Assembly (NCBI GenBank): GCA_026018925.1 | Contig: JAKSZU010000007.1 | Coordinates: 94,153,501 to 94,217,500 of the forward strand | Source of the DNA: Tupaia tana | Lineage: Eukaryota > Chordata > Mammalia > Scandentia > Tupaiidae | Length of the DNA stretch: 64,000 nucleotides | Direction of reading: 5' to 3' | Shown: piece after piece, positions 4,811 to 41,690 of the stretch | Layout of the letters: every line of letters begins with the position of its first letter | Numbering within the stretch: the stretch's first letter is position 1 | Position numbers and translations under genes: made by a program | The notes under the pieces: model-generated | Told to the model about the DNA's origin: nothing | Database searches by the model: none | Seen by the model: the letters and a program-made list of their open reading frames with translations, nothing else

Positions 4811-5440
4811 TCTCCAAGGGTTCCTGCTTCAGAGCAGCTCGGGGCGGGTCTAGGAGGGCCGCTTCCCTGTGGGCCAGGGCTGCCAGGCATGCTGGGGGCC
4901 CAGCACAAACGGGAAGGGGCTGCTTCCGTTCCTACCACAGATTCCCACAGACCCCCACAGACCCCAGCCGGAGGGCTGCAGCAGGGCGCAGGGGCTGCGG
5001 GAAATTTGGAAAAGCCAAAGCCAAATGCTCCGAGTGGACTGAGTGACCCAGAGGAGGGACCTCCTAGACCTGCCCAGAAATGCTGCACTGCAGACGCCAG
5101 GGCCCCCCTGAGTCCGATTCTGCAGATCCGCAGAGGGGTCCCGGAGGGCTCCCCCAGCTAACGCTGAGCTGCAGCCAGCTTAGGGCCCCGCTGGCCTGGA
5201 GCGACTAGGACCCATGTGCTGCTGTGGAGCCGATGCCCACCTGCCACTGCCTGGTCTGACAGGCGGCTGGACGTGACAGCCTCGTCACTGTCACACAGGG
5301 ATAGGTCAGCACTGCTGCCCGGTTCCCCTCCACTCCCGGAGTCTGGGAGGACAGGACCCATGGCTGCCACTGCACTTCTGGGCCCTCGGGGAGGTGCGTC
5401 TGCACACGCCTGCTTCAGCGGGGATATGCTGAGGGCATGG
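4810..5440. other. Unique GC-rich sequence
   Basis: No repeats or gene structure recognised. Open frames on both strands overlap and look compositional. Confidence 0.5.
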
Positions 5441-5444
5441 GGAA

Positions 5445-5540
5445 GGCCTGGTGTGGGGGTGGCTAGATCCCACATGGCCAGCCGTGCGCTTTGAGTCTTA
5501 GACCAGACACGGTGACTTGGGAAACACGCCAGACACGTGG
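5445..5540 (+). mobile_element. tRNA-SINE 5' part, sense half of an inverted pair
   Basis: Contains GGCTAGATCCCACATGGCC, CGTGCGCTTTGAGTCTTAGA (degenerate B box) and GAAACACGCCAGACACGTGG, that is, an old long-form head and the start of its body. It ends abruptly where an antisense head begins. Confidence 0.65.
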
Positions 5541-5614
5541 AACTGGGACTCGAACTGTAGTCAGCCACGTGGAAGTCCAGCACCTAAACCATCACACCAC
5601 CTGCTGGCCTTGCT
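5541..5614 (-). mobile_element. tRNA-SINE head, antisense half of an inverted pair
   Basis: Antisense head: GGGACTCGAACTGTAGTC (B-box complement), CCACGTGGAAGTCCAGCACC, ACACCACCTGCTGGCC. It abuts the sense-oriented SINE half just upstream, giving a tail-to-tail arrangement of two truncated 5' ends. Confidence 0.8.
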
Positions 5615-5711
5615 CTGAAAGTTTTTAAAGGAACATGGCTTTGGGGATACTGACATCTGTCCACTTTCCCTGACCTAGTACAAGCCTTACCTCCTCTAAA
5701 AACACCTGTGC

Positions 5712-5985
5712 TGGGCCAGCCATGCTGTGATGGTTAATGGAGCTGGATCCCACATGGCCAACTGCGTGGTTCGAATCCCAGCCCTGGCAGATTGAAAAAC
5801 GCTCAGGGCACATGTGCACACACGTGTGTGCCAAAATCCTGACCGGAAGGGGAAGTGGAGGAGAAGGGATTGCAGCATGACCGCTCCCCGCTGGGGGCGG
5901 GGACGGGGTGCTCTCTCCCTCTCCATCTCTCTAGCAAGCACACGTGGCCTCTAGCAGATTTATAAATGAATGAGTAAAAAGCCTT
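5712..5985 (+). mobile_element. Old long tRNA-SINE
   Basis: Head GGGCCAGCCATGCTGTGATG, GCTGGATCCCACATGGCC, B box GGTTCGAATCCC, body CCAAAATCCTGACCGG and tail module AGCAAGCACACGTGGCCTC, ending in an AT-rich tail. Confidence 0.87.
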
Positions 5986-6770: not shown

Positions 6771-7225
6771 CCGTTGGCCTGGGAGCCTGAGCAGCAGCCC
6801 CAGCTCCAGCCTGTCCCCCCGAAACCACCTCAGAAAACCCCTAGCGTGTGGCTCTACGCCACGCCTTGGCTAACGAAGCCGTTTCCTCTTTCGCATCTCA
6901 AGCCCAGATGGCGTTTGAGTGACGCTTAGCTCATCGCAGTCACAGAGGGACAGTTGGGAGCCCTGGGAACACAGAGCTCCCCGGGGACGGGGACGGGGGC
7001 AGGAGGAAGTGACTGCAGCTTGAACAGGGCTGGAAGGGGCCATCTGGCCCTGGTGGCTACCCACCTGACATCAGCAAAGCCGAAGTCCCAGCCGTGGGAA
7101 GAAGCCCGTCAGCACAGGTGGCATGTCCTCCTGTCCAAGGACAAGGGGAACTATCCCAGGCTACCTCCTCCATGCAGTCTTCCCTGATTCCACACTTGTT
7201 GCTCAGGCCCCCAAAGCCCCTGCCT
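6770..7225. other. Unique sequence, nothing recognised
   Basis: No repeat or coding exon recognised. Confidence 0.5.
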
Positions 7226-7227
7226 AG

Positions 7228-7362
7228 TTTCCCCACTGCTCAGTCGCCTCATCTGTGAGATGGGGGTGTTAGCAGCCCCTTCCCTGTGGGCTGCTGGAAG
7301 AGAGTGTGTGTGTAACTGCTCGGGGCAGCTCCTGACAGGCACCTAACAAACATTGCCTGCTC
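7228..7362 (+). mobile_element. MIR SINE fragment, sense
   Basis: CAGTCGCCTCATCTGTGAG, ATGGGGGTGTTAGCAGCCC and CTGACAGGCACCTAACAAAC fit the sense 3' half of MIR. Confidence 0.7.
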
Positions 7363-7364
7363 TT

Positions 7365-7600
7365 TTTTAGAAAGTTTATTTATTTATTTCTCCCCTGAGT
7401 GAGAGAGACGGGGGGTTGGGGGGAGAGAGCACCCTGACAGGGTCCCAAAGCCATGCTCTGCCCCAGCCTGGCCCTGGTCACGTGCCCAGCATCCCCAGGG
7501 AGCTCTCTGGACTAGAGTGGGAACCTTCGCATGTGGGTCGCCCCACAGTGACACACTGGACCGCTGTGCCACCAGCCAGCCAGCACCGCCCTGTGGCCGG
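7365..7600 (-). mobile_element. Rare tRNA-derived SINE, second family, antisense (probable)
   Basis: Starts with TTTATTTATTTATTTCTCCC, then a GAGAGAGA tract and ends with CCGCTGTGCCACCAGCCAGCC. In sense orientation the head is GGTGGCACAGCGGTCC with a B-box-like GCGAAGGTTCCC, and the tail TCAGGGGAGAAATAAATAAA resembles that of 63219-63430. It does not share the body of the dominant SINE. Assigned by analogy. Confidence 0.55.
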
Positions 7601-14080: not shown

Positions 14081-14575
14081 GGCGGGCTGTGCAGCCTGGT
14101 GGCTAAGGCAGCTGGATCCCACATGGCCCTGGGCCCAGCAGTTTGAGAGCCACGGCAGGTGCCCACGCCTGTGTGCCCAACATCCTGGAAGGAAGGCGAG
14201 ATGGAGAGCGGATTGGCGATGTTACCATTCCCCACAGGGGAATGCCAGTCCCTGGGGGTGATCTCTCACTTTTCCTCTCTCTCTCACTCTCTCTGTGATC
14301 TCTCACTTTTCCTCTCTCTCTCACTCTCTCTGTGATCTCTCACTTTTCCTCTCTCTCTCACTCTCTCTGTGATCTCTCAGTTTTCCTCTCTCTCTCACTC
14401 TCTCTGTGATCTCTCACTTTTCCTCTCTCTCTCACTCTCTCTGTGATCTCTCACTTTTCCTCTCTCTCTCACTCTCTCTGTGATCTCTCACTTTTCCTCT
14501 CTCTCTCACTCTCTCTGTTTCTGCCCAGTGCACACACATGCCCATTGTCAAAAACCTAAAAACGAAATAAAATAG
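14081..14575 (+). mobile_element. Old long tRNA-SINE expanded by an internal minisatellite
   Basis: Head GGCTGTGCAGCCTGGTGGC, GCTGGATCCCACATGGCC, body TGTGCCCAACATCCTGG and tail module AGTGCACACACATGCCC. The region that should be a single TC tract is replaced by seven 37-bp tandem units, making the element nearly twice the normal length. Confidence 0.9.
14258..14516 (+). repeat. 37-bp x 7 minisatellite inside a SINE
   Basis: Seven exact-length units starting at 14258, 14295, 14332, 14369, 14406, 14443 and 14480, each with GTGATCTCTCACTTTTCC plus a TC-rich remainder. By eye the only clear difference is in unit 4 (CAG for CAC). Near identity implies a recent expansion. Confidence 0.97.
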
Positions 14576-32086: not shown

Positions 32087-32545
32087 AGGGCCAGCAGGTG
32101 GCGCGGTGTTTGAAGCGCTGGATTCCCACATGGCCAATCACTGTTCAAGACTTGAAAACCACATGGGGTGCGTGTGCATGCGTGCCCAAAGTCCCAGAAT
32201 GGGCGCTGCTGAACAGCCTGCCCTCAGAGCCCTGACCGCCACACTCCCTCTGGCCAGTCTCCTAACTGGACACCCTGCCGTCCCTCCTGCACCCTTAAAA
32301 TGTACTCTCAACAGAGCTGCGGAGGGAACTTTAAAGGGGAAATCAATGCAGATCACACCTTGGTTCAAAGCCTTGGTTCAATGTCCCCCCAGGGTGACAG
32401 AAGAATGGAGAAGGAATTGCTGTGTGGTCCTTCCCCCAGGAGGTGATTTCTCACTTTCCCTCTCACTGTCTCTCTCTGTCTCTCTCAGTCTCTCACCTGC
32501 AAACACACACGCCCTATGGGGGGGAAAAATATCAAAAAAAAAAGA
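32087..32545 (+). mobile_element. Middle-aged long tRNA-SINE carrying a foreign insert
   Basis: GGGCCAGCAGGTGGCGCGG, GATTCCCACATGGCCAATC, CTGTTCAAGACTTG, GCGTGCCCAAAGTCCCAG up to 32202; body resumes at 32402 (AGAATGGAGAAGGAATTGC) and ends ACACACACGCCCTATGGG. About 200 bp of non-SINE DNA sits between. Confidence 0.9.
32203..32401 (+). repeat. Copy of a neighbouring L2 segment inserted in a SINE
   Basis: 32205-32373 is nearly identical (about three mismatches in 150 bp plus one 24-bp deletion) to 33454-33646, which lies within a longer L2 element. Short direct repeat AGAATGG at 32196-32202 and 32402-32408 flanks the insert. No A-tail. Confidence 0.88.
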
Positions 32546-33449: not shown

Positions 33450-34125
33450 GGGTGCTGCTGAACAGCCTGCCTTCCAGTGACTTCTCACCCTCTGCCCCAG
33501 AGCCCTGACCACCACACTCCCTCTGGCCAGTCTCCTAACTGGACACCCTGCCGTCCCTCCTGCACCCTTAAAATGTACTCTCAACAGAGCTGCGCAGGGA
33601 ACTTTAAAGGGGAAGTCAATGCAGATCACACCTTGGTTCAAAGCCTCCAGTGGAGGGGCCAGCCAGTGGCATAGTGCTTAGGGCAGCTAGATCCCACGTG
33701 GCCAACTGCCATAGTTCAAGTCCTGGACCCGGTGGCTTGAAAAACACACCAAGCACCTGTAGATGCTTGCCCCAAATTCCTCAAGCAGAACGGAAGAGAA
33801 GGAATTGCGGTGAGTCCACCTCCCTTGGGGGATGATTTTTCACTTTCTCTCTCCCTCCAGCAAATGAATGCACCTATCACTGAATAAAAAAAATTTAAAG
33901 CCTCCAGTGACCAAAACACCCACCTTGACCTGTGAGACCTGCACCTCCTCCCATCCCCCCTCACTCAGTGCACCAGCCCCACCGGCCTGGCTGTTCGGCA
34001 CGTCCAGAGGCCTCTGCACTCACCATCCCATCTGCTTGGCCTGTCCCCACTGGGCTCACACCGCCACTCACAGTAAAGACGTCCCTAAGGCCCTGAGTAA
34101 GGTATTGGCTGCCGTCTAGCACCCC
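33450..34125 (+). mobile_element. L2 fragment interrupted by a SINE; donor of the 32.2 kb copy
   Basis: CCAGTCTCCTAACTGGACAC, CCTGCACCCTTAAAATGTAC, TCTCAACAGAGCTGC, CAGATCACACCTTGGTTCAA, then after the SINE GACCTGTGAGACCTGCACC and CCTCACTCAGTGCACCAGCC: L2 order. Its 33454-33646 part has a near-identical copy at 32205-32373. Confidence 0.85.
33655..33897 (+). mobile_element. Old long tRNA-SINE in L2
   Basis: GGGGCCAGCCAGTGGCATAG, GCTAGATCCCACGTGGCC, AGTTCAAGTCCTGG, CCCCAAATTCCTCAAGC, AAATGAATGCACCTATCAC. Perfect target duplication AAAGCCTCCAGTG. Confidence 0.93.
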
Positions 34126-39359: not shown

Positions 39360-39501
39360 TTACTTCCCAACGTCCCGATCTCAGGCCTCAGCTCCACCGG
39401 GTCAGCCCCAGGGCTCCCCCCTCAGGCCGGCCTTCCGCTGCCTGCACCCAGGACTCCATCCCGCACTGAGGTTGTCACGCGTCTCCACGGCCCAGCCCCC
39501 T
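39360..39501 (+). repeat. Donor-like copy of a ~142-bp local duplication
   Basis: Aligns end to end with 40593-40735 at roughly 87% by eye. Shared strings include CCTCAGCTCC, CAGCCCCAGGGCT, GCTGCCTGCACCCAGGACTC and TCTCCACGGCCCAG. It lies in continuous unique DNA, so it is the likely source. Confidence 0.85.
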
Positions 39502-39632
39502 CGTCTGCTGAGTGGGCGTGATAAGGACACCTACTCAACGGGATGGGAGGACAAAGCTTGGGAGCAGCCACCCAGCGTCTAGTACGCGGGCATCTTCAAT
39601 ACAGGTCTTCAACCGTCACTTACCCTAAGAGG
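39502..39632 (+). mobile_element. MIR 3' fragment (possible)
   Basis: TCTGCTGAGTGGGCGTGATA, AGGACACCTACTCAACG, CAGCGTCTAGTACG resemble a decayed sense MIR 3' half. Confidence 0.45.
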
Positions 39633-39866
39633 AGGAACCAGCAGGTGGCACAGGGGTTATGTTGCTGGACTCATGGCTGACCACAGTTTGAATCCCAGAC
39701 TCGGTGACTTGAAACTCACACCAGGTGCATGTGAGTGTGTGCCCAAAATCCTGAGAGGAGAATGGAGAAGGGGGTGACTTTTCACTTTCCTTCTCACTGT
39801 CTCTGTCTCTGTCTCTCTCTGGCAAGCACATGCACCCTAAAGCAGAAACCACTTTTTAAAAAAAAT
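39633..39866 (+). mobile_element. Middle-aged long tRNA-SINE
   Basis: GGAACCAGCAGGTGGCACAG, AGTTTGAATCCC, CCCAAAATCCTGAGAGGAG, GCACATGCACCCTAAAGC. Part of the conserved GGCCATCC segment is deleted. Confidence 0.9.
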
Positions 39867-40095
39867 CACCCTAGGAAGAGAAGCTGGCATGGCAAACAGT
39901 AACCAGAGCAGGCAGGAGGGGAGCCTCCCGGGTGGCTGTGGAGCTGAAGCAGCACGGAAGAGGGGGTGGTGGCACAGAGAGAAAGCACGTGCTTGGCAGA
40001 GCAACCTCACACGGGGTCGTGACCCCGGGACCCAGGCTCGCTGAAGCTGGGTGGACTGTGGCCTCCAGACCCTGTCGTATCTTGGGTGCTGCATC
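39867..40095. other. Unique sequence
   Basis: Nothing recognised. Confidence 0.4.
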
Positions 40096-40312
40096 TCTGT
40101 CTCTGTAGGTCTCTCTGTCTCTCTCTAATTATCAGAGGATGCACCCCCACACACTTTGGGGCGAGGACACACCGCAATCCCGTCTCCATCTCTCCAACCT
40201 CCTGAGATCCTGGGCATGCCTGCTGTATTTTTGAAGCTGCGAGGCCCAAGATTTGAATACAGTGGGTCAGGTGGGATCCAGCTCGTTTAGCTACGAGGCT
40301 GAGGGGCCAGTC
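40096..40312 (-). mobile_element. Diverged old tRNA-SINE, antisense
   Basis: TCTCTGTCTCTCTCTAATTA, ACCGCAATCCCGTCTCC, TGAGATCCTGGGCATGCC, AGATTTGAATACAGTGGG, GGGATCCAGCTCGTTTAGC, GAGGGGCCAG. Confidence 0.75.
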
Positions 40313-40429
40313 TCATCTCTCCCCACCTCACTCACGGAATAAATAGGTAATCTTTAAATGTTTTTATTTTAATTTTAAAATAATAAAATAGTACAAACAC
40401 GTTTCTTAACAAGTTAAATATGCATTTAC

Positions 40430-40832
40430 CGGGGCCAGAAAGTGATGTAGTGGTTAAGGCACTGGTCTCCCCACATGGCTGACCAGAGTTTGAGTCCTAG
40501 ACCTGCAGCTTGAAAATCCTACTGGGCGCATGTACCTGTGTGCCCAAAATCCCAGGGGTGTTTTGGGCTGGAGAAGGCACTGTGACAGAGCCTTACTTCC
40601 CAGCGTCCCCTGACCTCGGCCTCAGCTCCGCCGGGACAGCCCCAGGGCTGCCACCTCAGGCCTGCCTTCTGCTGCCTGCACCCAGGACTCCATCCCGCAC
40701 CAAGGTTACCACGCATCTCCACGGCCCAGTCCCCTCTGTGACAGAGCCATCGCCCCAGGAGGTGATTTCTCGCTTTACCTCTCTCTGTCTCTCTGGCAAA
40801 CTCGTGTACCCTATGGCAAAAACCTTAAAAAA
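40430..40832 (+). mobile_element. Middle-aged long tRNA-SINE carrying a foreign insert
   Basis: GGGGCCAGAAAGTGATGTAG, AGTTTGAGTCCTAG, GTGCCCAAAATCCCAGG up to 40592; resumes CATCGCCCCAGGAGGTG at 40747 and ends TCGTGTACCCTATGGC. A 143-bp unrelated segment sits in between. Confidence 0.9.
40593..40735 (+). repeat. Copy of 39360-39501 inserted in a SINE with 13-bp flanking repeat
   Basis: The insert is bounded by CTGTGACAGAGCC at 40580-40592 and 40736-40748, a perfect 13-bp duplication of host SINE sequence. No A-tail, unlike an L1-mediated SINE insertion. Confidence 0.9.
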
Positions 40833-41438: not shown

Positions 41439-41690
41439 GTGGGACCAGCAGTTAGCGTAATGGCTATGTCGCTGGACTCCCATGTAGTTGACTGCATTTC
41501 AAGTCCCGAACCCGGTGGCTTAAACTCACACCAGGCACGTATGCGTGCGTGCCCAAGATCCCGAGAGGAGAATGGAGGAGAAGGGATTGCGGCGTGGCCA
41601 TCCCACCCGGGGGGTGACTTCTCACTTTCTCACTCTCTCTCTTTATCTGGCAAGCATGTGTGCCCTGTAGCAATTACAGAGAGAGAACAG
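41439..41690 (+). mobile_element. Young long tRNA-SINE without A-tail
   Basis: GGGACCAGCAGTTAGCGTAA, CATTTCAAGTCCC, GATCCCGAGAGGAGAATGG, GCATGTGTGCCCTGTAGC followed by AATTACAGAGAGAG in place of the usual A run. Confidence 0.92.

Follow-up and report, generated by a model that had tools for sequence, protein, structure and literature searches.

The locus described here consists of a SINE interrupted by a 143-bp insert, and lies in the second half of the window (the whole stretch of DNA that was analysed, 64 kb in length). The insert is a copy of a 142-bp segment on the same strand, with 1,233 bp between the two starts (39360 to 40593). Identity is 88.2% by blastn over 144 columns, including 3 gap columns, and 127 of the 141 ungapped columns (90.1%) are identical in a global alignment. 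The initial annotation had described 40593-40735 as a copy of 39360-39501, and both the relationship and the coordinates are confirmed. The global alignment contains 14 mismatches and 3 gap columns; 10 of the mismatches are transitions, 4 of the 14 lie at CpG sites, and donor and copy differ in 10 of 123 non-CpG columns. Beyond the insert the match continues for 3 bp on the left (GCC) and 1 bp on the right (C), and these bases are microhomologies at the two junctions. Neither poly-A nor poly-T is found at either end of the insert, in agreement with the missing tail noted at the outset. Terminal inverted repeats are also absent from the insert, its end bases matching in inverted orientation at only 3 of 20 positions. 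The features are collected in Table 1.

Table 1. Coordinates of the insert, its host SINE and donor, the second local copy of the window, and two short local pairs from sampled stretches of the same contig (positions of the pairs are those of their own stretches)
Feature	Position	Strand	Basis or remark
Inserted copy, 143 bp	40593..40735	+	blastn and global alignment with donor
Probable donor (template) segment, 142 bp	39360..39501	+	same-strand match; sole other match in genome search
Target duplication, left copy, CTGTGACAGAGCC	40580..40592	+	exact 13/13 repeat; SINE consensus 147-159
Target duplication, right copy, CTGTGACAGAGCC	40736..40748	+	exact repeat; random-interval chance test
Host SINE, left part, including left target repeat	40431..40592	+	consensus alignment
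Host SINE, right part	40749..40831	+	consensus alignment
Weak MIR-like stretch over right edge of donor	39482..39545	+	63% over 65 columns
Second copy, likely repair-mediated, in another SINE of the same family	32196..32395 (approximate edges)	+	self-comparison
Likely donor of second copy, downstream of the copy	33454..33646 (approximate edges)	+	self-comparison
Pair in stretch L010	7586-7658 and 8405-8474	same strand	73 bp, 819 bp apart
Pair in stretch L024	4045-4091 and 4973-5017	same strand	47 bp, 928 bp apart

Target duplication, empty site and direction of copying

The exact CTGTGACAGAGCC flanks reported by the initial annotation are present on both sides of the insert. Among 20,000 random 143-bp intervals placed in the window clear of tandem arrays, with edges sliding by 4, only 2 are flanked by a repeat of at least 13 bp, and both are the 40580-40748 locus itself. 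With tandem arrays unmasked, 83 of 20,000 intervals reach 13 bp.

The consensus of the SINE family was built from 49 other copies that span the site (E <= 1e-12, query 140-215 covered). These copies are uninterrupted by selection, because copies with a large insert would not span the site in one alignment. In the consensus of these uninterrupted copies the 13-bp target occurs once, at positions 147-159. The two CTGTGACAGAGCC repeats depart from the consensus at six positions, all six of them common to both, so that the host SINE already carried these differences when its target site was duplicated. The single target in the consensus and the six shared differences together identify the 13-bp repeat as a genuine target duplication. 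The possibility that the repeats belong to the normal structure of the SINE, against which the initial annotation had asked its reading to be weighed, is rejected on the single occurrence in the 49-copy consensus, as would be expected of a target duplication. The proposal of an insertion at a staggered break is supported.

When the flanks are joined at one CTGTGACAGAGCC, the resulting empty site aligns end to end with many SINE copies in the window. Compared with the consensus, 181 of 240 ungapped columns match and there is no gap at the join. The empty site is thus a reconstruction from paralogous SINE copies. The insert is longer than the 50 bp required as a minimum for the interrupted element of a repair-mediated duplication, and the pieces of the SINE continue on either side of it in order and orientation.

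The direction of copying is indicated by the same features. The segment at 39360-39501 is flanked by repeats of 4 bp at most. It is supported as the probable donor, with 40593-40735 as the recipient, because only the latter interrupts a SINE and has the target repeat. This agrees with the initial annotation, which had taken the earlier copy as the donor, and the reverse direction is rejected on the same two features. A MIR-like stretch that runs across the right edge of the donor weakly favours the same direction, but the match is marginal (blastn E of 0.86 for the window; best local score equalled by 1 of 300 shuffles). MIR-like matches also occur elsewhere in the window and suggest a mammalian genome.

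Copy number and mobile-element readings

The genome search covered 2.95 Gb in 1,198 contigs and, in a procedure that skips very common words and scores the best candidates only, placed the 143-bp unit in two places in total, itself included. A longer query from the donor returned the identical two places. The search thus found exactly one other genomic place, as is expected of a repair-mediated duplication. A genome-wide search had been proposed in the initial annotation as the way to tell an unnamed mobile element from a local event, and by that test the insert is a local event. In the 64-kb window, nothing scores at or above the gathering threshold of an Rfam family, and no tRNA gene is reported by ARAGORN. 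With a copy number of two, and with no poly-A tail, no terminal inverted repeats and no Rfam match, both an unnamed mobile element and a small-RNA retrocopy are therefore disfavoured.

A non-LTR retrocopy of a small RNA has a recognised small RNA as its source and usually has further copies. The insert, with no Rfam match in 64 kb and two genomic places, shows neither. A short, tailless RNA from the donor region, inserted by target-primed reverse transcription, would still explain the clean 13-bp target duplication, and some small-RNA retrocopies need no tail, which counts for this reading. Against it stand the missing Rfam match in the window, the two copies found in the genome search, and a template that lies 1.2 kb away in cis and on the same strand. 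The target edge (GGCA/CTGTG) is also unlike the motif of the L1 endonuclease site, TT/AAAA. Among the 39 proximal copies inspected by Pace et al. (PMC2671141), none has a poly-A or poly-T tract. Reverse transcription is already strongly disfavoured and is considered very improbable, and a small-RNA retrocopy is rejected on copy number, the lack of an Rfam match and the lack of a tail. Of the two mechanisms suggested in the initial annotation, template-copying repair is accordingly supported, and the tailless retrocopy of a small RNA is not, given the Rfam result, the two copies and a same-strand template at a distance of only 1.2 kb.

The insert could also be an unnamed transposon whose two copies are neighbours by chance. 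DNA transposons have terminal inverted repeats and occur in multiple copies with target duplications. Here the target duplication speaks for a transposon and nothing else does: the two ends do not form an inverted repeat (3 of 20 bases matching), two copies are found in 2.95 Gb, and one of the two places, 39360-39501, is without a target duplication, having no flanking repeat above 4 bp. This reading is likewise strongly disfavoured, has next to no probability in our estimate, and is rejected on copy number, the lack of inverted ends and the lack of a tail.

Likeness to repair-mediated duplications and the proposed repair

Repair-mediated duplications (RDs), as defined by Pace et al. (2009, PMC2671141), consist of an interrupted transposable element (TE) and a single template elsewhere, and the class is assigned there to break repair. 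In the human data of that study, 824 RDs have a donor within 5 kb, with a median length of 147 bp. Their distances peak near 1,200 bp, although the study cautions that its method may have produced this peak. At 6 of 39 inspected proximal breakpoints, target duplications with lengths of 4-21 nt are described: three combine microhomology with a target duplication (MH+TSD), two have filler in addition (MH+TSD+filler), and one shows filler, deletion and TSD. Most of the proximal RDs described there have a deletion or filler instead of a clean target duplication (PMC2671141).

On the evidence of its sequence, the insert at 40593-40735 is an RD of the MH+TSD type (143 bp, 1,233 bp, 3-bp microhomology, 13-bp TSD). 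It shares with the RDs described by Pace et al. (PMC2671141) an interrupted TE, a single template at less than 5 kb, a length of ~150 bp, a spacing of ~1.2 kb, microhomology at the junction, the lack of a tail and a target duplication within the range of 4-21 nt. The donor distance of 1,233 bp falls within 5 kb and outside the excluded 50 bp. The junctions, with GCC and the 13-bp TSD, fall among the forms allowed for the class (microhomology of 2-9 nt, deletion, filler or TSD, with no poly-A/T). Two differences are apparent. Target duplications are seen in only a minority of the inspected RDs (6 of 39), and Pace et al. (PMC2671141) used orthologous empty sites where available, whereas paralogous SINE copies were used here.

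Other short duplications are comparable in part. The doublets of Thomas et al. are short local duplications which, according to PMC2671141, have many attributes in common with RDs. The doublet-type studies, as characterised there, used identical or near-identical pairs of less than 100 bp, whereas the present pair is 143 bp long and ~10% diverged. CST-guided Pol alpha-primase has been shown experimentally to fill in 3' overhangs, with small tandem duplications as the outcome (PMC8355091). There, as may be the case for the 13 bp here, staggered ends are filled and joined, and the overhang is thereby repeated directly. However, no distant template lies between the repeats in that system as described, and the overhangs were induced, at sizes as small as 43 bp. 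The repair of meiotic breaks is reported to give rise to germline insertions that bear marks of template switching (PMC7615360).

What the analysis shows is a copy with its template and target duplication, an empty site without a gap at its join when set against the SINE consensus, and two places in the genome search. The best explanation for them, and in our judgement a very probable one, is a staggered break in the SINE that was repaired from a nearby template by synthesis-dependent strand annealing (SDSA) with end joining, i.e. an RD. A break in the germline would open the SINE, the cuts in its two strands being staggered by 13 bp. Of the resulting ends, the left one, with CTGTGACAGAGCC at its 3' terminus, would anneal at the GCC microhomology beside the donor ~1.2 kb upstream, on the same chromatid, its sister or the homologue, and 143 nt would be synthesised from the neighbouring donor. 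Once displaced, the new strand would be joined to the opposite end, where a separate CTGTGACAGAGCC would still be present, and fill-in of the staggered ends would give the 13-bp repeat. We infer how the break was shaped, which end primed synthesis, which polymerase acted, and that all this took place in the germline. Besides the copy number, the target duplication, the junctions, the missing tail and inverted repeats, and the fit to the published class, break repair is favoured by the low-copy pairs of the window, which number two, the second also being a local copy hosted by a SINE, at a distance of 1,274 bp. Against it, microhomologies of 3 and 1 bp are weak, and 3 bp is not rare by chance; in addition, the empty site is reconstructed from paralogous copies, the published peak of distances may owe something to the method, and clean target duplications are neither the usual form among proximal RDs nor constant among the short local pairs found here.

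Replicative template switching of the FoSTeS/MMBIR type would yield the same end product. A fork in the SINE would jump back ~1.2 kb, copy 143 nt and return 13 nt behind its point of departure, giving an identical product from one strand, and the microhomology at the exit junction is in keeping with such a jump. The end product alone cannot separate this process from break repair. However, a return just behind the point of departure without other change would be a special case, and the published RD class is attributed to break repair (PMC2671141). Template switching therefore seems an unlikely source of the insert, though one that keeps some weight beside repair of a break. The insert looks like an ordinary scar of imperfect break repair, of a kind already described in vertebrates. 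It adds one clean case to a known source of short duplications, in which donor, acceptor and target duplication are all readable.

Other local copies and the SINE family

When the window is compared with itself by blastn (E <= 1e-6, with the low-complexity filter and a limit of two overlapping hits), two low-copy pairs are obtained, 40593-40735 with 39360-39501 and 32218-32373 with 33492-33646. The members of the second pair are 97.4% identical over 156 columns, lie 1,274 bp apart and are on the same strand. The genome search with 33492-33646 again found two places, itself included. The second copy interrupts its SINE near consensus position 122, leaving pieces at 32088-32195 and 32396-32485. 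To the left, the match resumes at 32205 in the copy and 33454 in the donor, and the copy is without 24 bp that are present in the donor. The sequence CCTTGGTTCAA occurs twice at the right edge of the copy (32358 and 32371) and once in the donor (33631), and is filler-like. At the tight edges of the second copy there is no flanking repeat longer than 5 bp. If the edges are set at their widest and allowed to slide by 10, AGAATGG is found at 32196-32202 and 32402-32408, possibly as a 7-bp target repeat. The second copy is likely an RD, and is apparently younger than the copy at 40593-40735.

Twenty 10-kb stretches of the contig that holds the window, with 908 N bases in two of them, were each self-compared in the same survey as the window. 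Outside the window, nine low-copy rows were obtained in 7 of the 20 stretches (L010, L015, L017, L019, L021, L023 with three, and L024). Rows were set aside by eye in L015 (long), L017 (long, 66% identical), L019 (near-tandem), L021 (inverted) and L023 (three related copies). In the 200 kb sampled, only the L010 and L024 pairs are short, local and on the same strand. Short local copies are present elsewhere in the same genome, as these two pairs attest. Neither pair has flanking repeats longer than 4 bp, and a target duplication is therefore no constant mark of short local copies. A clean long target duplication is found in one of the four short local copies (two in the window, L010 and L024). 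The flanking repeats at the L015 and L019 rows are 3 bp at most. The L015 row is a same-strand pair of ~360 bp (5413-5772 and 7064-7424; 1,651 bp apart, 86% identical), and N bases occur in the same stretch.

The SINE family gives 78 consensus hits in the window and is present in all 20 of the sampled 10-kb stretches. Both local copies of the window lie inside this family, at consensus positions ~122 and 147-159, some 25-35 bp apart. An inverted repeat of C6 and G6 at consensus 162-174 adjoins the target site (41441-41673 is an example copy). These positions could suggest that the family is a break hotspot that seeds local duplications. However, there are only two events and the SINE is abundant, and the window with the 20-stretch survey is too small a sample for a test of a hotspot. 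As DNA, the C6/G6 stretch has no folding advantage, 62 of its 200 shuffles doing as well (z -0.39), and a hairpin as the cause of the break is unsupported on this count. The RNA fold of the stretch has a value of -20.0 kcal/mol, calculated without a shuffle control, and C6 is not paired with G6 in it. Because folding lends no support to a special hairpin, the hotspot reading, improbable from the start, is now considered more improbable still. A family as dense as this one could offer, in its interrupted copies, a ready-made trap for counting the scars of break repair in the genome. Elsewhere in the window, a short tandem array of 37-bp units at 14250-14512 resembles the CT-rich end of the SINE.
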